A stretch of DNA of 35,191 nucleotides from Candidatus Parcubacteria bacterium. Lineage in GTDB: Bacteria; Patescibacteriota; Minisyncoccia; UBA6257; 2-01-FULL-56-20. A model generated the notes under the pieces. The model had not been told where the DNA came from. It saw only the letters and a program-made list of their open reading frames with translations, and ran no database searches. The stretch covers positions 1-35,191 of the forward strand of contig DAIDLF010000028.1 of NCBI GenBank assembly GCA_027449645.1. The letters are read 5' to 3'. The position numbers and the translations under genes are program-made. Positions 1,963 through 31,803 of the stretch are shown piece after piece; the first letter of the stretch is position 1; every line of letters starts with the position of its first letter.

Positions 1963-2991
1963 TTATCCATGCCGGACCTCCAGCACATCGCCATCCTGCA
2001 CTTCATATTCCTTCCCTTCCACCCGGAGCCAGCCCTTCTGCTTCGCCTTGCTCCATCCGCCCGCCTCGAGCAGCTTGTCGCATGCAATCACCTCAAGCCG
2101 GATGAACTTATGCTCAAAATCCGTATGGATGACGCCTGCCGCCTGCGGGGCCTTCGTCCCCCGCGCGATCGTCCATGCGCGCGTCTCGTCCTCGCCGGTC
2201 GTGAAGAAGCTGATGAGGTCGAGCACGGCATAGGATTTCCGGACGAGGTCCGGTACGCCGTTCACCTGGGCCACGTCGGAGGCCAGATCTATGGCGAGAT
2301 GGTCGCCGCCGAGCGCCGCGATCCTTTCGGAAAGCGCGGGCGGCACGTCGGATGCGGTGCCGTTCAGAAGATAAAGCTGGCGCTTGAGGGTAAGGAGGTT
2401 GAGGTCGGCAAGCCGCACGTTCTCCTCGAGCTCCTTCACGAGCTCGGCATCCGCGCGCGGCAGATCGCCCGCCTCAAGGATCTTTTTGAGCCGGCCAAGC
2501 AATTCGCGGTCCTGCACGGCCTCCTTCTTTCCCGTGCGCGCCTCCGACTCCGATTTTGCATACCGCTTCTCCACCGACTCCAGATCCTTCAGGATAAGTT
2601 CCTGGTTGATGATCTCCAGGTCGCGCACAGGATCCACGGAATTTTCCACGTGGATGATCTCGGGGTTTTGGAACACGCGGAGGACAATGACGATCGCCTG
2701 CGTCTCGCGGATGTGCGCGAGGAACTGGTTGCCGAGACCCTCGCCCTTGTTCGCGCCCTTCACGAGGCCCGCAATATCGTAGAACTCCACGACGGCAGGG
2801 ATCTTCTTTTTTGACCTGCTCAATTCGTTCAATTTTTCCAGCCGCTCGTCCGGCACCGTAACGATGCCCACATTCGGATCAATGGTGGCGAACGGGTAAT
2901 TCGCGATCACGATATCCTGCTTGGTGAGCAGTTTAAAAAGCGTGGATTTGCCGACATTCGGGAGACCGACGATGCCGATGGAAAGTTTCAT
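1963..2991 (-). CDS. ychF: Ribosome-associated Obg-family ATPase YchF
   Basis: 342 aa, close to the usual 363. YchF/OLA1 proteins are P-loop NTPases of the TRAFAC/Obg group that prefer ATP, bind ribosomes and act in stress responses. Visible motifs are the P-loop GLPNVGKST (residues 9-17), NYPFATIDPNVG (switch I region), DIAGLVKGANKGEGLGNQFL (G3 and switch II), and a C-terminal TGS-like domain with FTTGEDETRAWTI, GVIHTDFEHKFIRLEVI and YEVQDGDVLEVR. The gene has its own promoter and a leader of about 45 nt, and CACGATCATC rather than a Shine-Dalgarno before ATG. It leads a two-gene unit with the transglutaminase-like gene. Confidence 0.97.
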   Translation of the reverse strand: MKLSIGIVGLPNVGKSTLFKLLTKQDIVIANYPFATIDPNVGIVTVPDERLEKLNELSRSKKKIPAVVEFYDIAGLVKGANKGEGLGNQFLAHIRETQAIVIVLRVFQNPEIIHVENSVDPVRDLEIINQELILKDLESVEKRYAKSESEARTGKKEAVQDRELLGRLKKILEAGDLPRADAELVKELEENVRLADLNLLTLKRQLYLLNGTASDVPPALSERIAALGGDHLAIDLASDVAQVNGVPDLVRKSYAVLDLISFFTTGEDETRAWTIARGTKAPQAAGVIHTDFEHKFIRLEVIACDKLLEAGGWSKAKQKGWLRVEGKEYEVQDGDVLEVRHG

Positions 2992-3219: not shown

Positions 3220-3247
3220 TTGCGGCATGGTGCCCTCTTTTTATAAT
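3220..3247 (+). promoter_or_regulatory. Promoter for the riboswitch-like RNA
   Basis: -35 TTGCGG, 16-nt spacer, perfect -10 TATAAT. Transcription would begin near 3254, just before the structured RNA. The -10 match and the position make this one of the better promoter calls in the window. Confidence 0.75.
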
Positions 3248-3254
3248 GAATAGG

Positions 3255-3440
3255 CATTGGATGCGGCGTCGCGGCAAGGGCAAGGCGGTCGCGTCCAAAA
3301 CAAAAGCCATAAAGGCTGGGGAACGGAGAAGCAGGTGAAAATCCTGCACAGTGCCGCTACGGTGATCTGCGCGCAACATCATGCAATGATGGCCTGCGTG
3401 CGGAAAGTCCGGTCGCCGCTCCCCTGCCGTAAACGTCTGA
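3255..3440 (+). ncRNA. Cobalamin-riboswitch-like RNA
   Basis: The conserved B12-riboswitch core is readable: GGGGAA, then a P5-type hairpin GCAGG-TGAAAAT-CCTGC, then ACAGTGCCGCTACGGTGA. These match the family signature (GGGAA, GGTGNAAATCC, GCCGCNACNGTRA). A peripheral arm follows (CTGCGCGC with GCGTGCGG, enclosing CATCAT/ATGATG). A degenerate B12 box is AGTCCGGTCGCCGCTC, against the usual AGYCAGGARACCTGCC (about 9 of 16 match). A 5' hairpin (GGATGCG/CGCGTCC) precedes the core. It has its own promoter and ends in an intrinsic terminator just before the 3563 gene. AGGCAA-type RNase P motifs were considered and rejected. No B12 transport, synthesis or B12-dependent gene is nearby. With the terminator and the promoter regions, this element accounts for most of the gene-free stretch 2992-3562. 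Confidence 0.82.
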
Positions 3441-3500
3441 CATTCCTCGAGCAAGGGAAAGTGGATACGCATTGCCGGCTTCGCCGCCGGCACCGATGTC

Positions 3501-3537
3501 CCTTCTCTCGCCGAGAAGGTTTTTTATTTTTTTAAGA
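3501..3537 (+). terminator. Intrinsic terminator downstream of the riboswitch-like RNA
   Basis: A 7-bp hairpin CCTTCTC/GAGAAGG with loop TCGCC is followed by TTTTTTATTTTTTT. A second hairpin (TGCCGGC/GCCGGCA) sits just upstream. An alternative pairing of AAGGGA (3453-3458) with TCCCTT (3499-3504) would disrupt the terminator's 5' arm, as an antiterminator would. It lies 25 nt before the next start codon, so it could gate the whole 3563-9066 operon, or simply end a free-standing RNA. Confidence 0.85.
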
Positions 3538-3562
3538 TCACCCAATTCCCTCACCTCTCCCC

Positions 3563-5689
3563 ATGAACGAAGTCCTGAACCCGGAACTGGAAGAAGCCTG
3601 TCGCGAGACCATCCCCGAAATCGAATTGCGGGAGCAGGTTCCGGAGCGCGATCCCGCAGAGGAAGGCGCGGAGCTTTCGCCATCGCCGAAAAACGAAGAA
3701 GGCGAAAAATCCGGAACCGCATCCGGCCTCGATCTCGTGCTTGAGCGGCACGGGGGTGCCGAAGAGGACTGGAAGATCACCTACCACGAGAGCGGCCATC
3801 GTTTTGATCCCGAGGCCCGGGAGCTGCTCGACGAGCACGGGAAATCGCTCACGAAGGAAATAGAGACGTCGGACGACAATATGTCTGCCGAGAAGATCGC
3901 GGAGCATTACCGGATGCTCGATCATTTCCAATCGAACCCCGACAAGCCCTATCTCCTCCCCGACTGGGTGGAGCAGACCCAGCACGGCGAGGTGATCCAT
4001 TCCACCATCGTCACGCTCGACGAGAACAACATATTCCATTATGAAACGCGATCGCACGAGGTAATGGCGGATGAGCCGGAAGAAGAGGATGCGCGCGAAG
4101 AAGTCCAAGAAGCGCCGGAGGCGGGCATCCTTTCAGATGAAATTCCCGCTTCCGATGATGCCGCAGAAACCGTGGCCAGCATCCCGGTGCTCAGGATCGA
4201 TCTCAATGAAAAGATCCTCGGGTCCCTTTCGGCAGAGCAAGCATATAGTGCAACAGCCGAAACGGCGCCGATCGAGGAAGATATTCTCCCCGCGCTCCAT
4301 GAAAATCCCCATTACGAGACTGCGCCGCATGAAGTTCTTGCGACCATAGGAAAGGATGATGGCACATCGGAAGATGCAGGTCCCGAAACCATGGAGCAAT
4401 CCTCTGTCGCGGCTGAAGCGACGTTCATGGAGATCGCGCCCGCGGAGGCGGTTGGTGCCGAAGCCGCTCCCGAAACGGCAGAAGGGGGAGCGATAACGCA
4501 GGCTGATGGGGCGGCGGCACAAGAGATAAGTCCAATCCCAGAGACAAGCGCAGAAATGCCGGTAGCAGAAGCGGAGGAAGATGGCCAAATCCATCGCTTG
4601 CCCGAAACCGTGATGGCTCCTCGTGAGACAAGCGAATCTATGCCGGCAGACGGCACTGCCGAAGCCGAAACGCTTTCCGAAGCAGTCCTCGAACCTGCAT
4701 CGAGAGAGAAAGAAGGGTCAGAGGCAGAAACAACGGTCGGAAGCGCAGCGGCAGGAGAAAATACCCCCCGGGCCGAAACTGGGGCCGAAACCAGAACTGA
4801 GGCTGAAATTGAAATGTACCCTGCAGTCCATACTGCAGAAACCAGAGAAGCTGTCCAAGTTATGAAATCCTCGGCTGAAAAGGCAGGCGCGACGAATGAA
4901 AGCGAAGTGGAAAGCGCAGAGGCGCAAGCCATTGCCCACAAGACCGCGGCGCGCGCCGGGGAATCGCATCCTCCTCTCCAGGAAAATGCCGACATCGCCA
5001 AATCAGCGGAAAGTTCGACTGACAGGCCGGCAGTAAAAGAAAAAAATGCACCGATCGAGGCTGTCTCCCATGAAGACGCACCGGACTCCGCAGGGCACGA
5101 GATGACTGGTCCCGAAGAAAACGCGTGGACACGGGAAGTGATTGCCGCGCCGCAGGAAAAAACTCTCCCGCGCGAAGCAATCGCCATTGCGCAAAAGCCG
5201 GAGGCGGCGCAACAAGAATCGGCGGTTACCGTCGAGGCCTCCTCCACTGCCCCCGCCGTCGAGGCCCGCGTCATCGCCGCCGGCACTGCCACCGAACGTG
5301 CTGCTTATCCTGAACATGAAAGCGCGGCACTTCCGGAAAGTTCCGCCGAGAAAGATTCTGATATCGCCATCGAGGCATCTGCCGAAGCATCCAACCGCAC
5401 GGAAACGGCGGCAGCGGAAGGGATGACTGGAAGGGAGGTTTTATTGCGGTCGCTCGGTATCGTAACGGAACGGCGGAGCGCAGGTGCGGGCGCGGAGGCG
5501 AAAACGGGCGCGGCCGAGACCCTGGCTCCTTTCACCGTCACCGCGGCCCGCGCGGGCGCGGCAGCGGGAGCACAGACTGCCGGAGCGAACCAATCAGCCG
5601 GGTCACGGCAGCGGGAACAGGAGCTGAAACCGCGCGAACGCGCGAGTGGCACTTCCCTCAACGGGATCACCTTGCGCCGGGCGGCATGA
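3563..5689 (+). CDS. Large acidic, mostly disordered protein of unknown function
   Basis: 708 aa, not recognised. No signal peptide or membrane segment is visible. Residues 1-170 look most ordered (TYHESGHRFDPEARELLDEHG, then AEHYRMLDHFQ). The stretch from about 170 to 640 is Ala/Glu/Thr-rich low complexity and looks intrinsically disordered. The tail is Ala/Arg-rich and ends TSLNGITLRRAA. A short motif recurs: HYETRSHEVMA and HYETAPHEVLA. It is the first gene after the riboswitch-terminator, with the AAA+ gene starting 31 nt later. A scaffold, adaptor or substrate for the AAA+ protein is possible but is only inference. Upstream of ATG is CACCTCTCCCC, with no Shine-Dalgarno. Confidence 0.8.
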   Translation: MNEVLNPELEEACRETIPEIELREQVPERDPAEEGAELSPSPKNEEGEKSGTASGLDLVLERHGGAEEDWKITYHESGHRFDPEARELLDEHGKSLTKEIETSDDNMSAEKIAEHYRMLDHFQSNPDKPYLLPDWVEQTQHGEVIHSTIVTLDENNIFHYETRSHEVMADEPEEEDAREEVQEAPEAGILSDEIPASDDAAETVASIPVLRIDLNEKILGSLSAEQAYSATAETAPIEEDILPALHENPHYETAPHEVLATIGKDDGTSEDAGPETMEQSSVAAEATFMEIAPAEAVGAEAAPETAEGGAITQADGAAAQEISPIPETSAEMPVAEAEEDGQIHRLPETVMAPRETSESMPADGTAEAETLSEAVLEPASREKEGSEAETTVGSAAAGENTPRAETGAETRTEAEIEMYPAVHTAETREAVQVMKSSAEKAGATNESEVESAEAQAIAHKTAARAGESHPPLQENADIAKSAESSTDRPAVKEKNAPIEAVSHEDAPDSAGHEMTGPEENAWTREVIAAPQEKTLPREAIAIAQKPEAAQQESAVTVEASSTAPAVEARVIAAGTATERAAYPEHESAALPESSAEKDSDIAIEASAEASNRTETAAAEGMTGREVLLRSLGIVTERRSAGAGAEAKTGAAETLAPFTVTAARAGAAAGAQTAGANQSAGSRQREQELKPRERASGTSLNGITLRRAA

Positions 5690-5720
5690 CTCTTAACAAA
5701 CACGACAACCAACGATCACC

Positions 5721-7397
5721 ATGGCCGACTTCAAAAAGATCCCCTACTACAGTCTCCGCGCGGAAGCGCTCATCGGCACCCTGCCCGTGCTGATCGGCCG
5801 CGCACAGGAGCAGGAGCGGCTCACGCGCGTCATCAACCGCCGCATCAACAACAACGCGCTGATCGTCGGCCCGAGCGGGATCGGCAAGACGACGTTGGCC
5901 TACGGCTGGCTCAAGCGCCTGAGCGAACAGGAAAAATATGACAACCTCCAGCTGATCCAATTCGACACGGATCATTTTTACGGCATCGACGAGGCGATAG
6001 GCGGCGCAAATGGCGGTGCAGGCAAGGTCTACCGCGAAGCGCTCGCATCATTGCCGCCCTGCGTGCTCTTCATCGACAACTTCGGCCGCGCCATGCGCCA
6101 GAGCTCCAGCTTCGTGCACCAGGTGATGCGCCTCTATGATATGACCCTCAAGAAGCCGGACGTGCGCATGGTGATCGCGCTCCAGCCGCAGGAATACGCG
6201 TGGCTCGAACGGGAGCATCCCGCGTTCGTCCAACTCTTCGAGACGGTCCTCCTCAAGCCGCAGACGTCGGCGGAGTACGTGCGCATTTTGGAGACGGCGC
6301 TCCCCCGCCTCAATCACGAGCACCGCATCATCATCCCCACGCAGTCGCTGCAGGAGATCGTCGCGTATGCCGAACGCTTCCCCGCGCTCGGACAGCTGCC
6401 GCGCTCGGCGATCAGCCTCCTTGACGAAGGCATCGCGTTCGCGGCGGCGAGCGGCCGCAAGGAGCTGATGGGCAACGGCGTGGCGCAGGTGGTGGCGAGC
6501 AAGACCGGCATCCCGGTGAGCCAGCTCAATCCCGACGAACTCGCGTCGCTGAAGGAGCTGGAGCAGAAGCTCGGCGAACGGATCATCAGCCAGTCCGGCG
6601 CGATCGCGAAGATCGCCTCCACGCTCCAGCGCGCCAAGCTCGGCATCCGCAATCCACAGAAGCCGCTCGGCTCGTTCCTGATGCTCGGCCCGTCCGGCGT
6701 GGGCAAGACGGAGACGGCAAAACTGATCGCAGAGACAATGTTCGGCCGCAGCGAGAGCTTCATCCGGTTCGACATGTCCGAGTTCGCGCAGGACCACACC
6801 GTCCAGCGGCTGATCGGCGCGCCCGCCGGCTACACCGGCTACGAACAGGGCGGCGCGCTCACGAACGCCCTGCACGCGGAACCGCACTGCCTCATCCTGC
6901 TCGACGAGATCGAGAAAGCGCATCCCAAAATTTTTGATATCTTCCTCCAGGTGCTGGATGACGGCCGCCTGACGTCCGGCCAGAACGAGACCGTCGACGC
7001 CTGCAACGCGATCATCATGGCGACCTCGAACGTCGGCGTGGAGGAGATCCTGAAGGCCGCCGCCGCGGGCGAGACCGACCTGAACCGGCCGGAATTCATC
7101 CAGGAAAAGATGCTCCCCTTGCTCGCCGGTGCGTTCCGCCTTGAATTCCTGAACCGGTTCGACAGCATCCTTATCTTCAACCCGCTCAGCCTGCCGGGGC
7201 TCGTGCAGATCGCCCAGCTCGAGATAAAGAAGATCGAGCGGCGGCTGGCCAAGCACAACGTGCAGTTCACGATCGATCCCGCAGTGCTCGAGGAAAAGAT
7301 AAAGACGATGACCGACCCGCGCTTCGGCGCGCGCCCGGTGAAGCGCTTCATCGAGGAGACCTGCGAATCGCTGCTCGTGCAGTCGCTGTTACAATAA
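5721..7397 (+). CDS. Clp/Hsp100-type double AAA+ ATPase with degenerate D1
   Basis: 558 aa, short for ClpA/ClpC/ClpB (750-860): the N-terminal adaptor domain and the ClpB middle domain are missing. D1 has a good Walker A (GPSGIGKTT, about 50-58), but its Walker B reads CVLFIDN, with Asn120 where the catalytic Glu should be. The usual RRFQ arginine-finger segment is replaced by VQLFETV. D2 is intact: GPSGVGKTETAK, LILLDEIEKAHP, ATSNVG, the arginine finger in FLNRFD, and a C-terminal GARPVKRFIEE. I see no IGF/IGL loop for ClpP. Likely a ClpP-independent unfoldase or remodeller powered by D2. Its partners may be the flanking operon proteins (inference). Confidence 0.88.
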   Translation: MADFKKIPYYSLRAEALIGTLPVLIGRAQEQERLTRVINRRINNNALIVGPSGIGKTTLAYGWLKRLSEQEKYDNLQLIQFDTDHFYGIDEAIGGANGGAGKVYREALASLPPCVLFIDNFGRAMRQSSSFVHQVMRLYDMTLKKPDVRMVIALQPQEYAWLEREHPAFVQLFETVLLKPQTSAEYVRILETALPRLNHEHRIIIPTQSLQEIVAYAERFPALGQLPRSAISLLDEGIAFAAASGRKELMGNGVAQVVASKTGIPVSQLNPDELASLKELEQKLGERIISQSGAIAKIASTLQRAKLGIRNPQKPLGSFLMLGPSGVGKTETAKLIAETMFGRSESFIRFDMSEFAQDHTVQRLIGAPAGYTGYEQGGALTNALHAEPHCLILLDEIEKAHPKIFDIFLQVLDDGRLTSGQNETVDACNAIIMATSNVGVEEILKAAAAGETDLNRPEFIQEKMLPLLAGAFRLEFLNRFDSILIFNPLSLPGLVQIAQLEIKKIERRLAKHNVQFTIDPAVLEEKIKTMTDPRFGARPVKRFIEETCESLLVQSLLQ

Positions 7398-7407
7398 CCA
7401 CACCGCC

Positions 7408-7749
7408 ATGGCCCAAAACCACGCACCAAACAACGAACATCTCTCATCGCCCGAGGCGCCCGCAACGGCACGCGGCGCGAAGACGCCGATGACAACTGCC
7501 GAGCGGCTGACGGTCGCCGATGCGGAGCGCATGGAGACCAATCGCTATGAGATGCTTGAGGTCGTGGAGGGCTACTTGAGCGAACCGTTCAAGAAGTCGG
7601 TGCGCGAGAAGATCCGGCGCGAAAAGGAACGCCTGCTTGCCTTCGTGTCCTATGAGAAGCAGGTGCAGGACGCGGCAAAGAGGATCGTGCGCGTGCTCAA
7701 CCCGGCGTATTTCGTCCATAAGCCGCTCGATAAAACTATGTTCGAATAA
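7408..7749 (+). CDS. Small hypothetical protein of the AAA+/VirD4-like operon
   Basis: 113 aa, not recognised. The first 30 residues are polar and Ala/Pro-rich. Residues 35-113 look helical and charged (ETNRYEMLEVVEGYLSEPF, KKSVREKIRREKERLLAF) and end with VLNPAYFVHKPLDKTMFE. No membrane segment or cysteine motif is visible. It starts 10 nt after the AAA+ stop and ends 30 nt before the VirD4-like ATPase, so it is surely in the same operon. It may be an adaptor between the two ATPases, but nothing in the sequence proves this. Confidence 0.75.
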   Translation: MAQNHAPNNEHLSSPEAPATARGAKTPMTTAERLTVADAERMETNRYEMLEVVEGYLSEPFKKSVREKIRREKERLLAFVSYEKQVQDAAKRIVRVLNPAYFVHKPLDKTMFE

Positions 7750-7752
7750 AAA

Positions 7753-7766
7753 AATCGCGCGCGATT
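7753..7766. repeat. Perfect 14-bp palindrome in the operon spacer
   Basis: AATCGCGCGCGATT lies between the 113-aa gene and the VirD4-like gene, flanked by A-runs. There is no T-run after it on the plus strand, so it is not a classical terminator. It could be an RNA processing hairpin or a protein site, or chance. Confidence 0.5.
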
Positions 7767-7779
7767 AAAAAACACCACC

Positions 7780-9066
7780 ATGTCATCCGTCACCATCGGC
7801 ATCAACGAATTCCGCAACAAGCTGACCTCCATCCAATTCAAGGACGAGGACCGTTTGCGGCACATGTACATGATCGGGAAGACCGGCGTCGGCAAATCGA
7901 CAATCTTCCAAAACATGTGCCTGCAGGACATCAAACAGCACCGCGGCGCGTGCTTCATCGACCCGCATGGCGAATCGATCGACTGGCTGCTCAAGCGCAT
8001 CCCGGCGGACCGCATGGAGGACGTGATCCTTTTCGACCCGAGCGACGCGGAGTTCCCGTTCGGCCTCAACCTGCTCGAGGCGAAGAGCGACTGGGAGCGC
8101 GACTTCCTGGTGAGCGAGGTCATCCAGATCTTCTACAAGCTCTTCGATCCCGACCACACGGGCGTGATCGGTCCCCAGTTCGAACACTGGCTCCGCAACG
8201 CCGCACTCACCGTGATGGCGGGACCGGGCGGCGGCACGATCATCGAGATCCCGCGGCTCTTCGTGGACGCCGGCTTTGAGGCGGAAAAGCGCCGCCACCT
8301 TACCGACCCGCTCGTGATCGATTTCTGGACGAAGCAGATGGCGAAGACCTCCGATTTCCACAAGAGCGAGATGCTCAATTACTTCATGTCCAAGTTCGGC
8401 CATTTCACGAACAACGCGCTCATGCGCAACATCATGGGCCAACATGAAAGCAGCTTCGACTTCGATTCCGTGATGGATGGCCGCAAGATCCTCCTCGTCA
8501 ATCTTTCCAAGGGAAAGATCGGCGAAATGAACGCGCACATCCTCGGCCTGATCCTCGTGGCAAAATTACAGGCCGCCATTTTGCGCCGCGCGCGCCAGAG
8601 CGGCGGCGAGCGCACGCCGTTCTATCTCTACGTGGACGAGTTCCAGAACTTCATTACCGATTCCTTCATCAGTTTGCTCAGCGAGTCGAGGAAGTACGGC
8701 TTAGGCGTGCACCTTACGAACCAATATCTCGCGCAGCTGCCCGCCGCCCTGCGCGATGCCGTGCTGGGCAACGTGGGCACGCTCCTCTCTTTCGAAGTAG
8801 GCGCCGAGGATGCCGAACTGCTCACCAAAGAGTTCGATCCGTTCACCCTGCACGACTTCATCGGCCTGCCCCGGTTCCATTTCTATATAAAACTGATGAT
8901 CGACGGCAAGACGAGCAACGCCTTCTCCGGCGTCGGACTGCCGCCCGAACCGCCCGCACCTGCGAGCGATGCGATCGACGGTGCCGTGGCGATCGTCAAC
9001 CGCCTGGCCTACGGCACGCCGCGCGTGCTCGTGGAAGAGATGATCAGGCGGGAGCTGGCGCAGTAG
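7780..9066 (+). CDS. VirD4/TraG-like DNA-translocase-type ATPase
   Basis: 428 aa. A P-loop ATPase of the HerA/FtsK/VirD4 group: Walker A MIGKTGVGKST (about 31-41), FIDPHGESIDWLL just after it (typical of TraG/TraD and DUF87-type proteins), Walker B LYVDEFQNF (about 287-296), and a following LLSESRKYGLGVHLTNQYLAQLP (sensor and Gln motif). VirD4 coupling proteins carry N-terminal membrane helices, but this one has none and is predicted soluble. It is the last gene of the operon and converges on the pilin gene, with only 14 nt between them. A role in moving DNA or protein, perhaps with pili, is inferred. No relaxase, VirB4 or VirB6 is in the window. Confidence 0.9.
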   Translation: MSSVTIGINEFRNKLTSIQFKDEDRLRHMYMIGKTGVGKSTIFQNMCLQDIKQHRGACFIDPHGESIDWLLKRIPADRMEDVILFDPSDAEFPFGLNLLEAKSDWERDFLVSEVIQIFYKLFDPDHTGVIGPQFEHWLRNAALTVMAGPGGGTIIEIPRLFVDAGFEAEKRRHLTDPLVIDFWTKQMAKTSDFHKSEMLNYFMSKFGHFTNNALMRNIMGQHESSFDFDSVMDGRKILLVNLSKGKIGEMNAHILGLILVAKLQAAILRRARQSGGERTPFYLYVDEFQNFITDSFISLLSESRKYGLGVHLTNQYLAQLPAALRDAVLGNVGTLLSFEVGAEDAELLTKEFDPFTLHDFIGLPRFHFYIKLMIDGKTSNAFSGVGLPPEPPAPASDAIDGAVAIVNRLAYGTPRVLVEEMIRRELAQ

Positions 9067-9080
9067 TGCCCTGAAATATT

Positions 9081-10289
9081 TTATTTTTCGGCGTTATAGA
9101 TCTGCTGGATCTCGGATGCGGAAAGGACGCGATTATAAACGCGAAAATCGTCAATGAGGCCTACGAATTGATAGGCCAGAGTGCTGTAATTCCCCATATA
9201 AAGGTTGGGCCCATCAAAAGAGGCCGTACCCGGTGCTGAGGTTTGGCCATCAAGGACCCCATTAGCATAGAGCTTCAGGGAAGCGCCATCATACGTTCCT
9301 ACGATAAAATACCAGATTCCCGGGGTAAGGGTGGTATTCCCTCCAACACTCTGTTGAACGCCATTGATGCGCGCAGAAAAATAATCCTTACCAGCATTAT
9401 CCGCAAGATAAGGAAGAGCAAAACTGGCGAATATCTGCAAACCAGAACTGCTTGCGGGATTGATCCATCCCATCATGGTGAACCCCTGACTCATTGAAAC
9501 ACCCGAGGTGACCCCGTTCGCAAGCACATAGCCCGAGGTAAACTGAAGACAGCTCGATCCGAGTTTACAAGCAGACCCCGATTGCCATGTGGGGAGAGTC
9601 GTCCCCGTGAGTGTTCCGTTGGCTCCATGACCGCTCCAGTCAAGCGTGCTGCTGCCCGATCCTTCATCAAGCGGCCAGTAGCCCACGAGGCCTCGTCCGG
9701 TACTAGGAAAAGTGGAGGCTCCAGACCCTACCTCCGCAAGCGCAGGATCGGCACCTCCCGCGGAACTCGATTTTGCATATTTCATTGATTCCATGAAGGC
9801 AGAGATTCCATATTGGGTGCCGTTCGTGGCATAGGTGTAATAAAGATTGCTTGAGGTTTGGTTTGTGGGATCTACGGGGAGATTGGAAAGAGGGCTGCCT
9901 GCGGAGATAGTGGAGAGGTTCACCGGGATCCAGCCGGTTGAAACCGCGCTGCGATTAGTGGAAGATGCCGCACAATGGTAGGTCCAGGTAGAAGAAGGCA
10001 TACCCAAGCCTTGGCATTGGTCACCGAGAGTAGACGTAGCAGAGGTGTCGAAGGTTGAGATATAGCTGGTGGTAGCCGTGCCAAGAGAAAAACTTGATGC
10101 AGCGGATTGGTCCGTCACATAGAGATTCAAAGCTGAGTTCAGGGTGGCAAGATCGGAGACCCGGTTCGCATCGCGGGATTGGCGCAACAGCTCTGCGGGG
10201 TTCAGGGTCAAAACCACCACGACCGCAAGGATCGCGATGATGGCGATCACGACGAGAAGCTCAATGAGGGTGAAGGCAGAGCGTTTCAT
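9081..10289 (-). CDS. Type IV prepilin fused to LamG/concanavalin-like domain
   Basis: 402 aa. The N-terminus KRSAFTLIELLVVIAIIAILA is a class III prepilin signal: processing before Phe with Glu at +5, then one hydrophobic helix. Residues 40-180 form a pseudopilin-like region with Ser/Thr-rich loops. From about 200 to 402 comes a LamG/concanavalin-type beta-sandwich (GLVGYWPLDEGSG, GLIDDFRVYNRVLSASEI). LamG-like domains often bind sugars or surfaces, so the protein may be a pilus-tip lectin or adhesin. Its ATG directly abuts the stop of the upstream paralogue, so the two are translated from one message. It lacks its own Shine-Dalgarno. Confidence 0.92.
   Translation of the reverse strand: MKRSAFTLIELLVVIAIIAILAVVVVLTLNPAELLRQSRDANRVSDLATLNSALNLYVTDQSAASSFSLGTATTSYISTFDTSATSTLGDQCQGLGMPSSTWTYHCAASSTNRSAVSTGWIPVNLSTISAGSPLSNLPVDPTNQTSSNLYYTYATNGTQYGISAFMESMKYAKSSSAGGADPALAEVGSGASTFPSTGRGLVGYWPLDEGSGSSTLDWSGHGANGTLTGTTLPTWQSGSACKLGSSCLQFTSGYVLANGVTSGVSMSQGFTMMGWINPASSSGLQIFASFALPYLADNAGKDYFSARINGVQQSVGGNTTLTPGIWYFIVGTYDGASLKLYANGVLDGQTSAPGTASFDGPNLYMGNYSTLAYQFVGLIDDFRVYNRVLSASEIQQIYNAEK
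10174..10262. repeat. Pilin N-terminus DNA repeat, copy A
   Basis: It contains a 44-nt block (10219-10262) identical to 11479-11522 and a 26-nt block (10174-10199) almost identical to 11434-11459. These code for the pilin helix and the region just after it. The near-identity points to recent duplication or gene conversion between the two pilin genes. Confidence 0.85.
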
Positions 10290-11570
10290 TTATTTCTCGG
10301 CGTTATAAAGCGCCTGGACTTCTGCCGAAGAAAGCGCGCGGTTATAAAGACGAACGTCATCAATGATGCCTGGGAAAAGATTACTGCCGCCCCGCGATCC
10401 AATCGTGAAGGGAATCGTATTGGCCCCAGGTGGATAGGCCCAAGATACCGGGGCACCCGCAACTCCATCTCGATAGGCAATAACTTGCGTTCCATTGAAA
10501 ACTCCTGTGACGAAATGCCAATTCCCGTCACCAATCGCACCTCCGGTTGCCGTACCGCTGTTGCCATTCGCTCCTGAACGGATATTGAACGTAATACCTC
10601 CCATGTAATAACCCAGATCAAAACCACAGGTTCCCGCGCCGACAGTGCATCCGCCATATTCAGCGCCAATACCGTTATATGACGAATTGGGCACTGGTAT
10701 CCTTATCCATGCCGCAACCGTAAGGTTCCCAACAAGCGCAGTGCTTGCACTGCTCGTAACCATCACATAATTCGTGGTTCCGTCAAAGTTTCCTGCCCAT
10801 CCCCCCACCTTTGCATTGCTCGTATAATGGCTTCCGGCTATCATCGATCCATTCCATGCCCCGTTATTCCCATTGCTCGTCTGGTCGTAAGCGATGGTGC
10901 CAGATCCTTCGTTAAGCGGCCAGTAACCGACGAGACCAGCCGGGTCAAAGAGGGAAGAGACGCTGGGAGTGCCTCCGAAGATGACCTCGGGGAAGAACGT
11001 GTCTTGGGGTAAGGCACCATATTGCGCTTTGTACTTCTGAGATTCAAGGTCGGCAGTGACCACAAACTGGGACCCATTCGTATTATAGCTGTAAAAAAGA
11101 TTGGAACTCGTCTGATTCACGGGATCTACGGGAAGATTGCCCAAAGGAGGGCCGGAGGAGATGTTCGAAAAATTCACCGGAATCCAGCCGGTCGTCGTCG
11201 CGTTGCGATAGGTGGAGCTTGCGGAGCATTGCCAAGATTGTCCAGTGCCTAAAGTAGGGAGAGCGAGGCCCTGGCATTGGTCACCCGCCGTACTCGTGGC
11301 CGAAGAGTCATAGACCGAAGGATAAGTGGCGTTTGCGTTCCCTAACGAGAAGGAAGAGGCCCCTGACTGGTCCGTGACATACAGATTGAGGGCGCTGTTC
11401 AGCGTCGCCATGTCGCTTACCCTATTCGCGTCACGGGATTGGCGCAACAGCTCTGCGGGATTCAAGGTGAGGACCACGACGACCGCAAGGATCGCGATGA
11501 TGGCGATCACGACGAGAAGCTCGATGAGGGTGAAGGCGCGACTTTTGCCGTGCGCATTATAAAATGCCAT
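10290..11570 (-). CDS. Type IV prepilin fused to LamG/concanavalin-like domain (paralogue)
   Basis: 426 aa, a tandem paralogue of the next gene. The N-terminus SRAFTLIELLVVIAIIAILA is a prepilin peptidase site plus pilin helix. Residues 30-200 parallel the neighbour almost block by block (NRVSDMATLNSALNLYVTDQ). Residues 210-426 form the lectin-like domain (GLVGYWPLNEGSG, DGNWHFVTGVFNG, GIIDDVRLYNRALSSAEV). Between the copies the pilin part is strongly conserved and the lectin part diverged, as expected for changed ligand specificity. The start ATG is 7 nt after a TATAAT, so the message is probably leaderless. No pilus assembly ATPase or prepilin peptidase is in the window. Confidence 0.92.
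   Translation of the reverse strand: MAFYNAHGKSRAFTLIELLVVIAIIAILAVVVVLTLNPAELLRQSRDANRVSDMATLNSALNLYVTDQSGASSFSLGNANATYPSVYDSSATSTAGDQCQGLALPTLGTGQSWQCSASSTYRNATTTGWIPVNFSNISSGPPLGNLPVDPVNQTSSNLFYSYNTNGSQFVVTADLESQKYKAQYGALPQDTFFPEVIFGGTPSVSSLFDPAGLVGYWPLNEGSGTIAYDQTSNGNNGAWNGSMIAGSHYTSNAKVGGWAGNFDGTTNYVMVTSSASTALVGNLTVAAWIRIPVPNSSYNGIGAEYGGCTVGAGTCGFDLGYYMGGITFNIRSGANGNSGTATGGAIGDGNWHFVTGVFNGTQVIAYRDGVAGAPVSWAYPPGANTIPFTIGSRGGSNLFPGIIDDVRLYNRALSSAEVQALYNAEK
11434..11522. repeat. Pilin N-terminus DNA repeat, copy B
   Basis: Partner of the repeat at 10174-10262, in direct orientation and 1260 bp away. Recombination between the copies would delete one lectin domain and leave a single chimeric pilin. 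Confidence 0.85.
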
Positions 11571-20925: not shown

Positions 20926-23037
20926 CTATTGGCAGAAGCTGGGCTTGGTGGTGGTCGCCGTCAACGCGCCGTTCACCGTATAGATATATTCAAGCGTCGT
21001 CGTATTCACCGAATCGTATCCTTCCATACAGAAAGCCTTGGTAGAAGTGCCAATCTCCAAAGAATTGCCGCCGAGAAATGTCGCTGCTGTACTGCTGTTC
21101 CCAATTGTCGCGGTATTATTTCCATTGCCCGTCGCATTTGCACCGATTACGATTTCGTTAGTATCCCCGCTTGCCAAGGGATAAGCCTCATAACCGATAT
21201 CCACGGCGTAATTAGTGGCGGCATTAGATGCCCCAGTGGAAGTGAGAAGTCCGGCGTTATCTCCGATTCCAATATTAAACGAACCGGCTACATTATTTTC
21301 CAATGCTTGATATCCAATTCCCGTATTCTGGGCACCCGTATCATAAAAGAGGGCATTGTTCCCCACTGCAGTATTGTTTGTTCCAGTGAGATTAGAACCG
21401 AGCGCTCCCGTACCGAAGGCCGCGTTATTTTGGCCAGTCGTATTGTTTTGGAGAGAAGCGTAGCCGACCGCAGTATTAAATCCTCCCGTCGTATTCCCCC
21501 GAAGAGCATAGAAACCGATCCCGGTATTTCTTGTACCGGCCGTATTGAGTTCAAGGGAATAATAACCCAGAGCAGAATTGGTGCCCCCGGTAGTATTATA
21601 AGCCAATGATTTGAATCCTACGGCAGTATTGCTTGTCCCAGTAGTATTTGATCCAAGAGAATTAGCGCCCACTGCCGTATTGTATAGTCCCGTGGTGTTA
21701 TTCTGCATACTTTCATATCCGATGGCAGTCTCATATCCGCCCGCGTCATTAGCCAGCGCGAGAGACCCGAGTCCTATGCTATCCCCGGATGTAATAATGG
21801 GGATGCCGCTGAGGGTTGTCCCCATATTTGCCGCCGTGATCACCGAAGAGGGAGACGAGGCATTTTGTATGGCTGATATCGAGTTTGCGACATTTTTTGC
21901 CACTATCATATATCCATTCGCCCCATAATGGAGATAGTCCGTCCCCACGAAAGAAGTGTTTGCGGCGTATGACGACGCCGTAGTGCCCGCGTATCCGCGT
22001 ATTGCAGAGGTGATGGTATTGCCGGATATGGCGGAAACATAAATTTGCTCGCTCCCGATAGTGAGAATCTGGCCCACATAAGGAGCATTGAGCGTAGGCG
22101 TCACGCTGAAACTTGTCGAGGCCGCGCCGATCGCCGCCGTGAGCGTTCCCTTGAAGTCGACGGCGCGCAACGAATAGGGTGGAATGCAGTTGTTGTAATC
22201 GATCACGTCGGCAGGAATCGATGGATTATAAGAGTTGAGCAGTATGTTCCTTATATCAAGATAATGGCCTGTTGGGCCATACGTCGAAGAAAGCGCGCTG
22301 TTGATCTGTTGGACGTCGGCCAAATTGGCACTGGCACAATTTTCCCCTTCTCCGTTCACCACGGACAAGACCAGATAGTTCCCGTTTTGGGTCTTTGCTA
22401 CCATGCTCGCGATATCGCTCAATACCGTGCCGGTAGCGGTCAGATTGTTTCGGCCCGCCCATATTACCGTAAACCAGGGCCATGTACTCGACGCCGCGAG
22501 AAAACGAGATGCTATTTGGCTGCTTGTTTGACCCCCGACGCCGAAATCACGGACATTCGGACCGGGAAGATACTGATTGAGCAGGTTAGGATAGGTGTAA
22601 CCCGTATAGTCCTCGTCTCCCAGCGTCAAGCTGTCTCCCCATGCGCCGATGTTCATTGCGCTCACAATAGAAGAGGTGTTGGCGTAGGATATCGCTCCCC
22701 CGCACGTCGTCGTCGTCACCGCGCCAGCGGCGCTTACAGCAAGACAAGGAGAGCTTGAAGCGGCGAGCGAGGTGATGGCAAGATTATTGACGGTCGTCGT
22801 CGCTCCGATGAGCGTGATCGTGCTGCTCGGATTTCCGATATTGATCGTGGTCGCCGTGGACGTTCCAATGGCGATGGTGCCCGTGGCATCAATGATGACG
22901 CCGGAATCCCCAATGATCGTGTTATTGGAAAAATCCAACGCGGCAAACGCCATGGGGACGCCGATAATAAGAGAGATGGCTGCGACAATAGAGAGAAAAA
23001 GCGGAATGCTTCGGAAGGATCGTTTCTCAGAGTCCAT
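20926..23037 (-). CDS. Secreted fibre with SGNH hydrolase domain and 17-residue head repeats
   Basis: 703 aa. A membrane anchor or signal segment at 11-33. Residues 35-110 are a beta-rich stalk (TIAIGTSTATTINIG). About 125-400 is an SGNH/GDSL hydrolase: block I GAWGDSLTLG (Ser136), FGVGGQTSS, WAGRNNLTATG, and DYLHYGANGY (Asp and His). From about 430 to 600 come nine or so copies of a 17-residue repeat (NTAVGANSLGSNTTGTS), like the head repeats of trimeric autotransporter adhesins. The C-terminus has GGNSLEIGTSTKAFCMEGYD, as seen in phage-tail and adhesin C-termini. A surface fibre with a carbohydrate esterase or lipase activity is likely. A promoter with TATAAT lies 8 nt upstream. Confidence 0.85.
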   Translation of the reverse strand: MDSEKRSFRSIPLFLSIVAAISLIIGVPMAFAALDFSNNTIIGDSGVIIDATGTIAIGTSTATTINIGNPSSTITLIGATTTVNNLAITSLAASSSPCLAVSAAGAVTTTTCGGAISYANTSSIVSAMNIGAWGDSLTLGDEDYTGYTYPNLLNQYLPGPNVRDFGVGGQTSSQIASRFLAASSTWPWFTVIWAGRNNLTATGTVLSDIASMVAKTQNGNYLVLSVVNGEGENCASANLADVQQINSALSSTYGPTGHYLDIRNILLNSYNPSIPADVIDYNNCIPPYSLRAVDFKGTLTAAIGAASTSFSVTPTLNAPYVGQILTIGSEQIYVSAISGNTITSAIRGYAGTTASSYAANTSFVGTDYLHYGANGYMIVAKNVANSISAIQNASSPSSVITAANMGTTLSGIPIITSGDSIGLGSLALANDAGGYETAIGYESMQNNTTGLYNTAVGANSLGSNTTGTSNTAVGFKSLAYNTTGGTNSALGYYSLELNTAGTRNTGIGFYALRGNTTGGFNTAVGYASLQNNTTGQNNAAFGTGALGSNLTGTNNTAVGNNALFYDTGAQNTGIGYQALENNVAGSFNIGIGDNAGLLTSTGASNAATNYAVDIGYEAYPLASGDTNEIVIGANATGNGNNTATIGNSSTAATFLGGNSLEIGTSTKAFCMEGYDSVNTTTLEYIYTVNGALTATTTKPSFCQ
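21250..21741 (-). repeat. 51-bp tandem repeats coding for head-type 17-aa units
   Basis: About nine to ten imperfect 51-nt units code for NTAVGxxSLxxNTTGxx. Copies differ at the DNA level, so this is an old, selected protein repeat and not recent slippage. Confidence 0.85.
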
Positions 23038-27375: not shown

Positions 27376-30300
27376 CTAGAGGGATTTCAGAAGGCTTTCA
27401 AGCTGACTCAGCATGCCCTGGAGCGATTGGCTCACGATCGCCGTCTGATTGCTCGTGTCGGTCGCGGCCGCGTGGAACAATCCTCCGGTGACCGGCGTAA
27501 GGATCGGCTTGATGATCGGAAGCGGGGCAATCGTGACAGGGCTCACGGTCGCGCTTACCTGCGAGGAAGGCGTTCCTACGAGGCCGTTCATATCCTGTGC
27601 GGCAACGGCGTAATAGTAGGTTCCCGCCGCGAGCCCCGAGTCGGTATATGAGAGCACATTCCCCTGCACGATCCTGTTGGAAGCGCTCGGCGTAAAGTTT
27701 GGCGTGGTGCTGCGGTAGATGTTATAGACCCCTATACCGTTCGTCGCCGTGGCCGCCGACCAGGAGAGGGCCACCGCCGTGCCATTCGCGGTTGCGGAAA
27801 GATTCTGCACCTGGGACACGGTCGGCTGGACCGTCACCGGAGCACTGTTGCAGACGGTCATGCTGCAGCCATTGCTCTCCAGCACCGTATGGCCGCCATA
27901 CGGGCAGTACGGCATGATGTCCGGACATGCCACCGGAAGCTTCGGCGCGCTTGACCCTACGGTCATGTTGTTCCCCAGGATGATGAAGCTTTGATTCGCC
28001 ACGGTGGCGTAGTTGCCCCCGAAGCTGCCGCTCAAACCGAGATCCAGCGCCCCGGATGCCGAAGGGGCGATATCAGCGACATAGGTGAGCACCACGCTTC
28101 CCCCGTTCGGAATGCTCACGGTCTGGTTGAAGAACACGTTTGCCTGGGCACCGGTCACGCCTCCGGCTGAAAGATTGGCGACACTCCCAAGCAACGTGGA
28201 GCCGTTATACACCCTTATGTTCGAGAGTGAGCTTATCGCATTCGCGCTGTTCGAGCCCGCGCCGACGTAGGTGAGGTTCACCGGGCCGCCGGCCGCGGAG
28301 AACTTGACGCTTGCGAAGGTCACGCCCGACTGGCCCGCCGATACGGTCTGCGATGCAGGGGTGGAGGCATCAAGGCCGGCGCTCAGCGTACCATAAGCGG
28401 AAGCGGCAGGCGGATTGATGGTGAGCGTCACCGGAACAGTCTGATAGGTGGACAGCGAGGAGTTGATGATGAACACCGTGCCCGAGTAGGTGCCTGCCGA
28501 AAGGCCTGAGGTGTTGGGCGTAAAGGTCGCCGACGTGAATCCTCCGCCATTGGTGGTTGTGTCCATCTTCATCCATCCGCAGTTGACGCTTCCGTTCACG
28601 ATTGCGTTGCAGTTCCACGAGACCTGCCAGCCGATCGGCAGACTTGGGCTGAAGGTGAGCGTCTGCGCGGCAGGATTCGCCCCGCCCTGGGTCCCGGTGA
28701 ACGAGAGCGCACTCGGAGCGATGGTGGGGTTCTGGGATACGGCGGACGTCACCGTGATCGGGATGGTCTTGGTCACCTGCGTGGTAAGGGCCGGATATTG
28801 CGCGCCGCAGATATTCGTCTGCGAACAATACAGGGAAACGCTCAAGCTATAGGTTCCCGCAGTCGATGCGCTCGGCAGGGTCACCTGCCACAATCCCGTT
28901 GCGCTGTTATAGCTGCCGTTTGCCCAACTCACGTACGACGTCGATCCCTGCGGATACAGATACGCCTGCACATTGAAGCCGCGGGCAGAGGTTGCGGGCT
29001 GCCCTCCCGGAGCGGCACCCGTACTGCCCGGAGAGGCGATGCCATTCAGCGTGAACAAAATCGACTGATTCGGCTGATACGATGACTGTATCCCCGAGAT
29101 GTCCGTGATAGAGAGCGAAGCCTGCGACTGCTGGCCGGCGACAATGGAGAACGGCGCCGGGCTCTGCGCATAATCGTAAGGGTTCACGTATTGCTTCACT
29201 ATCTGGACGTAATATGCCGATCCCGGAGCCAATGTGGCCCCGTTGGTCACCGTGCCCACATTCCAATTGAGCTGCGTGGTGCCATATACCTCGCCCGCAA
29301 TGCCGGCCGCGCTGCCGTTGGCTTGCGTAATGAATACGGTATAGGTGGCATTGGAAGATCCGGCGCTGTCCGACCATTTGATGGTCTGTGTGCTGCCGAG
29401 CGGCCACTGTTCCCCTCCTGCCGGAGCAAGGATATTGATGGTATTGCCGGTTGACGGATTCACCGTAACGTCTGCCGTGAGCGGCATGGATGCCCCGTAA
29501 TCAAGCTGGCCCACTGCCTGGATGGATACCCCAGTCTGGTTCATGAACTGCAGGACATCCGTCCCATTCATGGCAACCGGACGGGCCACATCCCCGCAGG
29601 TAAACGTATGGCCGTTCGTGATATCAAAGATCGTAAGGCCCGTGACACAGCCCACAGTGAAATCGGCATTGCTGGTCCCTGAAAGCGAGCCCGGAATGTT
29701 CCAGGAGAACGTCACCTCGCCCGAACCGTTCACCGAGGTCGGCGATACCGAAAACGACGGCGTGGTGCCTCCTGTCCCTCCCGCGCCGCTCAGGTTGACC
29801 ACGGTAATGGGCGCCTGCTGTTGGGCGGAAAGCGTAAGGGAGACCGCCGAGTTGTCCGTGCCATCATAGTACGAGAAGTCGGCGTTATTCTGGATGGTGG
29901 CGACGACGCTCTGGGCGACATTCGGCGAAGAAGGAAGCCTGCTCAGATCGCCCCACACTGAAAGCGAATAGGAGCTGCCCGCAGGGATGATCAGCGGGTT
30001 GGCATGCGGCAGGAAGGTCCACGTGATCCGGTTTCCGGATATGGAGGACTGCGCCATGCGGTCGGCGGCAACAATATCATTACCGTTCGGGTCATGGAGC
30101 ACCACGGAATTCAGGAATGATTGCGCATGAGAGGCGCTGCCGCTGAAGCTCAGCGTGAGGCTATTCGGGACGGCATCCCCGGCGGCATTGGCCGTAAGAT
30201 TGATGCTGCCGAGCTGCTCAAAAGAGGCCGGAGGCATGGACGCCACCGACTGGCCGGCAAGCGTGAGCGCCGTCCGCACCACCGTGACAGGAGCCGCGGC

Positions 30301-31710
30301 GGCGCCATTCGCGATCACCGTGGCCGTCTCATTGGAAGTCGCTCCGAAGGCCGTACCGCCGGCAATGCTGAAGGTATGCACGCTGTCATCGGTCGCCGAG
30401 CTGCCGGTATAGGAACCGGCGTCCCCGTAAAGCGAGAGCGAGAGCGAACTGCCTGCAGGGACCACCAGCGCATTGGACAGGGAGAAAGTATATTGGTAGC
30501 CGCCGCCGATCTTCACCGGAGCGCTCGCCGCACCGAGCATGGAGAACTTGCAGCAGGTGCCGATCTGCAGGTTCGAGAATGAAGGCAGGTTCCCCGAAGC
30601 GGTCATGTCGGTCACGGTAAGATTCGTGAACTTCACGGCCTCGGCGGCATCCTGATTCGAGAACGTGAACGTTCCGAGCAGGTTGCCGGTGGTATTCATG
30701 ATCGCAAGGCTGGCAGCCGGCGTGTTCGGAGACAACGAGACGCTCACCACCGGGCCGGAGCCCGTTGATGCGCCGCCGATCGTCATCGTCTGCCCCGTTG
30801 TGGGCGTGCAGGAGTAGGCGCTATAGCTTGTAAGGCCCGCCGCCGTGCACGAGGCAAGCGTCGTGGCATTGGCGGGAGCAAGGCCGGCAAGAGACTGGCT
30901 TACCGCCTTCACGTCAGCAAAAACATTGACGTTCGCGGACGATCCGGCAGGGATGCGGACGGGCGAACCGGAAAACACATAATTGTTGTTGTCCGCCACC
31001 ACTGCCTGGGCAGCGCCGAACTGGACGCCATTCACATACAGTCTGAGATTCTGGAAATCGCTGCCGTTTTGTCCGGCGCCCACCACAATGCTGCTCACCG
31101 AAACTCCCTCGGCGGACGGCGCGGAAACCGCATAGCCGCCGACAAGCTGGTTTGCCGCCCCGGATGCGAGCGGCATGGAGGCTACGTCAGGGTTCCGCAC
31201 GACCGCAAGCTGGTTCCCCGTGGAAGAAGCGCTGCATCCAAAGAGCGCATTCAGTTTTGTCCGCGTCGAGGGACCCACATAACCCGTACCGTTGGTCAGG
31301 CCGTACGGAGCGAGGATCGTACTGGCATATTTCTCCTGGAAGCTCGTGACCGCAGCCGCAGTCTGATCGTCAAAGGTCCCGGTCATCTGCACGGACTCGC
31401 CGTCCTTCTGAAGCGCCGTCTGGAGGGCGGTCACTTCTGCGCCGGATGCGCCGTACGTAAGATTATCGGAGAATGCGTAACACCACGTCGAAGTACCCGA
31501 CGTGGTCGGGGTACCCGCGGAACCCGAGGTGCCTGCGCCGCCCGAAGCGGCCAACTGGCTCTGCAATACCTGCAACTGCGCGAGCAGTGCCGCGATCTGG
31601 GCCTGGATGCTCGCGGCACTCGGCGCCGGCGCCGCCTGGGCAAAGGACATTCCCGGCGCCACTAACACGGCCAGTGCGAACACTGCCGCCAATTTATTTT
31701 TTATATGCAT
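27376..31710 (-). CDS. Giant secreted surface protein (possible S-layer or wall-associated)
   Basis: 1444 aa from MHIKNKLAAVFALAVLVAPG. Signal peptide 1-25, then a short coiled coil (IQAQIAALLAQLQVLQSQLA). A peptidoglycan-binding domain (about 75-150: LTYGASGAEVTALQTALQ, VTSFQEKYASTIL, GYVGPSTRTKLNALFGC). Several related beta-sandwich repeats of about 110-130 residues follow, each with an IPAGSSxxxxVxxDv-type ending. Further on are a Kre9/KNH-like segment (APAGGEQWPLGSTQTIKWS), a BACON-like domain (PSALSFTGTQGG), a Cys-rich motif (CPDIMPYCPYGGHTV), and an FN3 domain near the C-terminus (LSWSAATATNGIGVYNIYRS). No LPXTG or membrane anchor. S-layer or major surface protein is inferred from size, signal and wall-binding domain. 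The domain calls are by motif. Confidence 0.85.
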   Translation of the reverse strand: MHIKNKLAAVFALAVLVAPGMSFAQAAPAPSAASIQAQIAALLAQLQVLQSQLAASGGAGTSGSAGTPTTSGTSTWCYAFSDNLTYGASGAEVTALQTALQKDGESVQMTGTFDDQTAAAVTSFQEKYASTILAPYGLTNGTGYVGPSTRTKLNALFGCSASSTGNQLAVVRNPDVASMPLASGAANQLVGGYAVSAPSAEGVSVSSIVVGAGQNGSDFQNLRLYVNGVQFGAAQAVVADNNNYVFSGSPVRIPAGSSANVNVFADVKAVSQSLAGLAPANATTLASCTAAGLTSYSAYSCTPTTGQTMTIGGASTGSGPVVSVSLSPNTPAASLAIMNTTGNLLGTFTFSNQDAAEAVKFTNLTVTDMTASGNLPSFSNLQIGTCCKFSMLGAASAPVKIGGGYQYTFSLSNALVVPAGSSLSLSLYGDAGSYTGSSATDDSVHTFSIAGGTAFGATSNETATVIANGAAAAPVTVVRTALTLAGQSVASMPPASFEQLGSINLTANAAGDAVPNSLTLSFSGSASHAQSFLNSVVLHDPNGNDIVAADRMAQSSISGNRITWTFLPHANPLIIPAGSSYSLSVWGDLSRLPSSPNVAQSVVATIQNNADFSYYDGTDNSAVSLTLSAQQQAPITVVNLSGAGGTGGTTPSFSVSPTSVNGSGEVTFSWNIPGSLSGTSNADFTVGCVTGLTIFDITNGHTFTCGDVARPVAMNGTDVLQFMNQTGVSIQAVGQLDYGASMPLTADVTVNPSTGNTINILAPAGGEQWPLGSTQTIKWSDSAGSSNATYTVFITQANGSAAGIAGEVYGTTQLNWNVGTVTNGATLAPGSAYYVQIVKQYVNPYDYAQSPAPFSIVAGQQSQASLSITDISGIQSSYQPNQSILFTLNGIASPGSTGAAPGGQPATSARGFNVQAYLYPQGSTSYVSWANGSYNSATGLWQVTLPSASTAGTYSLSVSLYCSQTNICGAQYPALTTQVTKTIPITVTSAVSQNPTIAPSALSFTGTQGGANPAAQTLTFSPSLPIGWQVSWNCNAIVNGSVNCGWMKMDTTTNGGGFTSATFTPNTSGLSAGTYSGTVFIINSSLSTYQTVPVTLTINPPAASAYGTLSAGLDASTPASQTVSAGQSGVTFASVKFSAAGGPVNLTYVGAGSNSANAISSLSNIRVYNGSTLLGSVANLSAGGVTGAQANVFFNQTVSIPNGGSVVLTYVADIAPSASGALDLGLSGSFGGNYATVANQSFIILGNNMTVGSSAPKLPVACPDIMPYCPYGGHTVLESNGCSMTVCNSAPVTVQPTVSQVQNLSATANGTAVALSWSAATATNGIGVYNIYRSTTPNFTPSASNRIVQGNVLSYTDSGLAAGTYYYAVAAQDMNGLVGTPSSQVSATVSPVTIAPLPIIKPILTPVTGGLFHAAATDTSNQTAIVSQSLQGMLSQLESLLKSL

Positions 31711-31773
31711 TGTTTTTTTGCGGATAAACGACCATGGCCCCTGACCAGGGAGCCGTAAATATTTGTTGCCATT

Positions 31774-31803
31774 ATTAAACCACGCCAGGAAGACGGCGCG
31801 CAA
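31774..31803 (-). promoter_or_regulatory. Possible promoter for the giant surface protein
   Basis: Minus strand: -35 TTGCGC, 18-nt spacer, -10 TTTAAT. A leader of about 57 nt would follow, with AAAAAAACA before ATG and no Shine-Dalgarno. Confidence 0.4.

Follow-up and report, generated by a model that had tools for sequence, protein, structure and literature searches.

An AdoCbl riboswitch ahead of an operon without known B12 function in a Candidatus Parcubacteria draft genome

An AdoCbl riboswitch lies directly in front of a co-directional set of genes for an AAA+ protein and a VirD4/TraG-like ATPase in a Candidatus Parcubacteria genome. The DNA analysed here (the window, 35,191 nt) is the whole contig C28 of a 40-contig draft of 665,599 bases, which is 85% complete; the genomes of relatives range between 0.4 and 2 Mb, and these small sizes agree with the Patescibacteria-like cell suggested in the initial annotation. 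As a riboswitch the RNA is unremarkable, and its assignment to a known class is well supported; what is unusual is the target. The computed support comprises the aptamer, a terminator, a competing antiterminator, a platform found clade-wide, B12-linked genes elsewhere in the genome, and a tight, co-directional gene order. We consider it probable that a functional AdoCbl attenuation switch controls the operon at 3563-9066, and that it descended from the leader of an uptake gene through rearrangement. For the mechanism and ALTERNATIVES, the best reading is an AdoCbl off-switch; that the RNA binds its ligand and regulates in this direction, that the genes are co-transcribed, and how the arrangement evolved are all predictions. 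The link between switch and operon is suggested by their position.

A scan of the window against all of Rfam returned two matches, one to tRNA and the other to the AdoCbl riboswitch family RF01482. The latter scored above the curated gathering cut-off of 50 bits (E 5.6e-8), and its alignment was full length (model 1-149). The general cobalamin family RF00174 fell just short at 3269-3437, with 30.6 bits vs a cut-off of 31.5. No second cobalamin riboswitch was found when the genome was scanned with RF01482 or RF00174. The leader is composed of the following elements:

3220-3247, plus strand: putative promoter, from direct reading of the sequence
3301-3469, plus strand: AdoCbl riboswitch aptamer including P13/L13 (RF01482, 56.6 bits)
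3331-3366, plus strand: conserved core GCAGGTGAAAATCCTGC (3331-3347) and CACAGTGCCGCTACGGTGA (3348-3366), nearly identical in loci L002 and L089
3367-3412, plus strand: P6 extension and core segment AAAGTCCGG (3404-3412), from the covariance-model alignment
3442-3462, plus strand: P13/L13 arm ATTCCTCGAGCAAGGGAAAGT, whose loop and 3' strand supply the 5' half of the antiterminator
3473-3492, plus strand: spacer hairpin TGCCGGC-TTCGCC-GCCGGCA, present in every platform fold
3499-3533, plus strand: intrinsic terminator, with stem CCTTCTC/GAGAAGG at 3501-3519, loop TCGCC, then T6-A-T7

The RF01482 core elements GGUGAAAAUCC, GCCGCYAC.GUGA and AAGUC.GGUC were all present. P13 was matched within 3430-3469 by the covariance-model alignment and its loop is common to relatives, while the L5-L13 kissing contact is a prediction. 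The arm motif CCTCGAGCAAGG is common to the window leader and to loci L002, L089, L099 and L100. The window RNA resembles the RF01482 model in its full-length match over the cut-off, in P13/L13 and in its terminator-type platform, but has a longer P6 extension (29 nt vs 5 nt in the model). Unlike the usual RF01482 targets, the operon behind it has no known B12 function; a B12-gene neighbourhood is the usual association of RF01482 and not part of the definition of the RNA. The initial annotation had recognised a B12-riboswitch core signature, and both motifs that it quoted were found. The covariance-model check and the conservation of the core in related genomes, both proposed there, agreed with it: the RF01482 score was significant, RF00174 was slightly sub-threshold, and the core recurred almost unchanged in two other loci.

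The putative promoter has a perfect -10 box (TATAAT, 3242-3247), a 16-nt spacer and a weak -35 box (TTGCGG, 3220-3225). A transcript would be expected to start near 3254. The site was not called by a consensus promoter scan, because its -35 matches only 3/6 positions of the consensus. The strong promoter described earlier thus holds for the -10 box and not for overall strength, the best -35 being this one. The intrinsic terminator was present as described, with the hairpin CCTTCTCTCGCCGAGAAGG at 3501-3519 followed by the T-run.

A possible pairing of AAGGGA with TCCCTT had also been pointed out, and folding showed it to be real: AAGGGA at 3453-3458 pairs with TCCCTT at 3499-3504 inside a longer antiterminator. 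When 3425-3540 was folded, CTCG.AG..AAGGGA of L13/P13 paired with TCCCTTCT..CGAG of the terminator. This antiterminator was the free minimum-energy structure (-38.4 kcal/mol), vs -33.1 kcal/mol with the terminator and P13 enforced. The two states are mutually exclusive as judged by folding, because the 3' strand of P13 joins both. The antiterminator duplex (-22.4 kcal/mol) was matched by 33 and 26 of 2000 dinucleotide shuffles, either side, placing it in the top ~1.5%. Across the class, 10 of the 35 leaders combine an L13 CYCGAG with a CUCG terminator just before the T-run; shuffles gave a mean of 0.085 such devices and a maximum of 2 (200 rounds). In cobalamin riboswitches, an L5-L13 kissing loop connects the aptamer to the expression platform, and the same study predicted a terminator for 37 of the 38 that it classed as functional (PMC9600662).

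We propose that positions 3301-3533 encode a functional AdoCbl riboswitch acting via transcription attenuation. In the absence of AdoCbl, 3447-3470 (the L13 loop and the 3' strand of P13) would pair with ~3495-3516, which covers the loop of the terminator and its 5' half. The antiterminator would then form, and RNA polymerase would continue into the operon at 3563-9066. Once AdoCbl is bound, P13 would be held by the L5-L13 kissing contact, the terminator at 3501-3519 would form, and the transcript would end 30 nt short of the first start codon. The predicted logic, operon off when AdoCbl is present, follows from the competition between the terminator and the P13/L13-based antiterminator, and is the classical scheme in which a bound ligand, through the kissing loop and P13, favours the terminator. 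As binding would cause termination, the operon would be expressed at low AdoCbl. The probable ancestor of the switch is a leader that served a transcobalamin-like uptake gene in the same clade, and a rearrangement would have brought the switch in front of the accessory operon. Four observations speak against this explanation: an RTPR score under the NCBI curated cut-off (306 vs 340 bits), the weak -35, operon products without a B12 tie, and the lack of a relative with the same pairing of switch and operon. The operon could have a promoter of its own downstream of the terminator. Because the genome is 85% complete, a second switch target could be absent from the assembly.

The genes behind the switch are tightly spaced, with 30 nt from the T-run to 3563 and then gaps of 31, 10 and 30 nt. 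No plus-strand terminator was called between 3520 and 9066.

3563-5689, plus strand: first gene, 708-aa acidic protein rich in Ala and Glu, no family match
5721-7397, plus strand: 558-aa AAA+ protein with ClpA/ClpC-like D1 and D2 and no N domain (PF07724, PF10431, TIGR02639)
7408-7749, plus strand: 113-aa protein, no Pfam match and no homologue in the fetched loci
7780-9066, plus strand: 428-aa VirD4/TraG-like P-loop ATPase (PF10412, PF12696)

The codon signal of the first gene was weak, yet best in the correct frame. Its product had no match in Pfam or PADLOC, and no homologue in viral contigs or in the fetched riboswitch loci. The AAA+ protein matched PF07724 with an E value of 4.5e-55 as well as PF10431, and TIGR02639 (ClpA) with 346 bits over residues 12-557. 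It shares the D1 + D2 architecture of ClpA/ClpC unfoldases but not the Clp N domain. A true ClpA or ClpC was rejected on this missing domain and on the score, compared with 993 bits for ClpA; the protein is ClpC-like. Its nearest matches were ClpB/ClpC-like, 27-46% identical over longer alignments, with short partial ones up to 58%. No orthologue was found in the genus, in 244 genomes of the order, in 384 genomes of the class, in GTDB genomes (pattern search) or in viral contigs. The 428-aa ATPase shares the P-loop and TraG-D_C domains of VirD4/TraG coupling ATPases, but lacks the N-terminal membrane part seen in homologues of ~800 aa. Its best relatives are larger, 43-45% identical, and occur in 38/38 genomes of the family. 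An anti-phage defence system was considered for the operon and rejected, as PADLOC gave only partial P-loop matches.

No gene for B12 synthesis, transport or use, or for a B12-independent isozyme, was detected in 3563-9066 with Pfam, TIGR and PADLOC. In the rest of the window, too, no gene was recognised as B12-linked. The earlier statement that there is no B12 link is correct for the window but not for the genome, which encodes two relevant loci elsewhere:

Contig C14 (L134, 6006-8345), minus strand: RTPR-type ribonucleotide reductase, 779 aa, with an N-terminal ATP cone (TIGR02505, PF21995, 1L1L)
Contig C1 (L073, 2774-3819), minus strand: DUF4430 protein followed by a DUF6580 membrane protein; the two genes are a candidate unit for B12 capture

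The reductase reached 306 bits against TIGR02505, vs an NCBI curated cut-off of 340. Its insertion domain PF21995 scored 31 bits vs a cut-off of 27, and its nearest solved structure was the RTPR 1L1L (E 2.5e-50). The DUF4430 and DUF6580 proteins shared 32% and 41% identity with their counterparts, which form a pair directly in the riboswitch-led cluster of L102. Neither locus has a riboswitch of its own, as revealed by the genome scan. The cell very probably uses B12.

The position of the switch gives a testable clue to the role of the AAA+/TraG-like operon, which should be needed at low AdoCbl. From gene content, we hypothesise that DNA uptake answers a failure of the reductase: AdoCbl shortage would stall the enzyme and turn on the unfoldase and the DNA-translocating ATPase, so that external DNA is taken up or processed for deoxynucleotides. 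We give this scenario a slim chance. If true, a B12 riboswitch would govern DNA acquisition, not B12 uptake or a reductase isozyme.

AdoCbl switches were found in 7 of the 61 genomes of a close-relative search (the window's own genome counted) and in 35 of 384 sampled genomes of the class (about 9%), mostly on transcobalamin-like proteins. The label 'orphan' given earlier thus suits the linked gene, not the RNA. At 33 of the 34 loci other than the window, a B12-linked gene was among the first two downstream; this count takes in weak below-cut-off matches, corroborated by their B12 neighbours. The exception was L115, with a partial 30.6-bit match. DUF4430 and/or a squalene-cyclase/prenyltransferase toroid characterised 23 of the 34 first genes. 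Transcobalamin and intrinsic factor combine these two domains. DUF4430 is the C-terminal domain of transcobalamins (PMC4350170). Five first genes encode small membrane proteins with a resemblance to ECF S components or DUF6580, some of them sub-cut-off or unmatched in Pfam; those of L094 and L114 share 53% identity. Two more encode ribonucleotide reductases, NrdD (L105) and a class I-type enzyme (L108); the window genome's own reductase on C14, in contrast, is switchless. A CobC-like/CobU/CobT salvage operon follows the switch in L088, and the transcobalamin-like gene is in second place in L102 and L103. The B12 regulon of the class (L002-L007, L088-L114) thus includes transcobalamin-like and S-component-like proteins, NrdD and class I-type reductases, and CobC/U/T. 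L095 carries both an AdoCbl and an AdoCbl-II switch (1501-1657 and 2222-2296, minus strand), ~560 nt apart, upstream of a transcobalamin-like gene. The open-access literature searched yielded no publication dealing with cobalamin riboswitches of this class.

The aptamers closest to that of the window by alignment include L089, L099, L100 and, from the same family, L002, all located before transcobalamin-like genes. Among the AdoCbl/AdoCbl-II leaders of the class, L002, L003, L089, L099 and L100 have a near-identical core, and most share the arm motif with the window; L089, L099 and L100 also share its CUCG terminator loop. These five precede proteins with an SQHop/prenyltransferase toroid and DUF4430, whereas the window leader does not. 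Very small-genome bacteria of this class seem to have retained a functioning B12 regulatory circuit, and the window is the only above-cut-off case with a target not related to B12. Linkage of the switch to the 3563 gene, which the initial annotation had suggested comparing across related genomes, was absent in relatives: the fetched loci held no homologue, and the AAA+ orthologue was missing from all order (0/244) and class (0/384) genomes. Its suggestion that B12 controls a DNA-translocase/AAA+ operon stands as far as an AdoCbl-class switch with terminator and antiterminator precedes the operon; the control itself is deduced from position.

The main rival is an intact switch with incidental control. 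Here, a displaced leader would be left over from a lost or relocated B12-uptake gene and would make a short RNA, with the operon transcribed independently from its own promoter past the terminator. Among the B12 switches found in the class, this is the only one ahead of such an operon, and the DUF4430 and DUF6580 genes on C1 have no switch directly ahead, both as expected of a displaced leader. The region upstream of ychF also varies within the genus: six members with ychF have different DNA there, and none of them has the switch at this place. However, the 30 nt between T-run and first gene leave little room for a promoter, none was called there, and the full retention of the aptamer and a complex antiterminator suggests continued selection. 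We regard a displaced leader as unlikely.

A change of ligand, for instance to methyl- or hydroxocobalamin or to a non-corrinoid, would suit the new operon and its genes without a B12 link. It could also account for the J6/3-side segment, GUCGCC vs GUCUUU in the Rfam consensus. This segment is, however, off-consensus too in close relatives ahead of B12 genes, every other core position is retained, and the model favours the AdoCbl family (56.6 vs 30.6 bits). With a putative AdoCbl-type RTPR and the DUF4430/DUF6580 pair in the genome, the earlier idea that the RNA now senses something else appears very improbable. A chance covariance-model match, or a chimeric contig fusing a B12 leader with an operon of foreign origin, is hardly credible: the assembly is a 40-contig draft and the junction occurs in no relative, but the E value was obtained across all of Rfam, the adjacent ychF is 73-78% identical to those of the genus, and even GC (0.55-0.61 throughout) speaks against recent foreign DNA or chimerism, as does codon usage, which in the AAA+ and ATPase genes (0.58 and 0.55 bits per codon) matches that of the conserved contig genes (0.53-0.65 for most of them).

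Behind the operon, 9081-11570 (minus strand) holds two tandem pilin-like paralogues, each carrying an N-methylation motif and ending in a Laminin_G_3 domain at the C-terminus; pilin-like relatives adjoin ychF in other genus members. Two large, presumably secreted proteins of 703 and 1475 aa are encoded at 20926-23037 and 27376-31803 (minus strand), the former without a Pfam match and with a repetitive 'NTTGxxNTAxG'-like region. Shine-Dalgarno motifs were scarce, at 2 of 22 gene starts (window starts; also L074, L075 and L134), and many starts were preceded by A/C-rich ends such as CACC. At the minus-strand starts 11570, 23037 and 27335, a TATAAT-like -10 lies within ~10 nt of the ATG, which suggests leaderless mRNAs.
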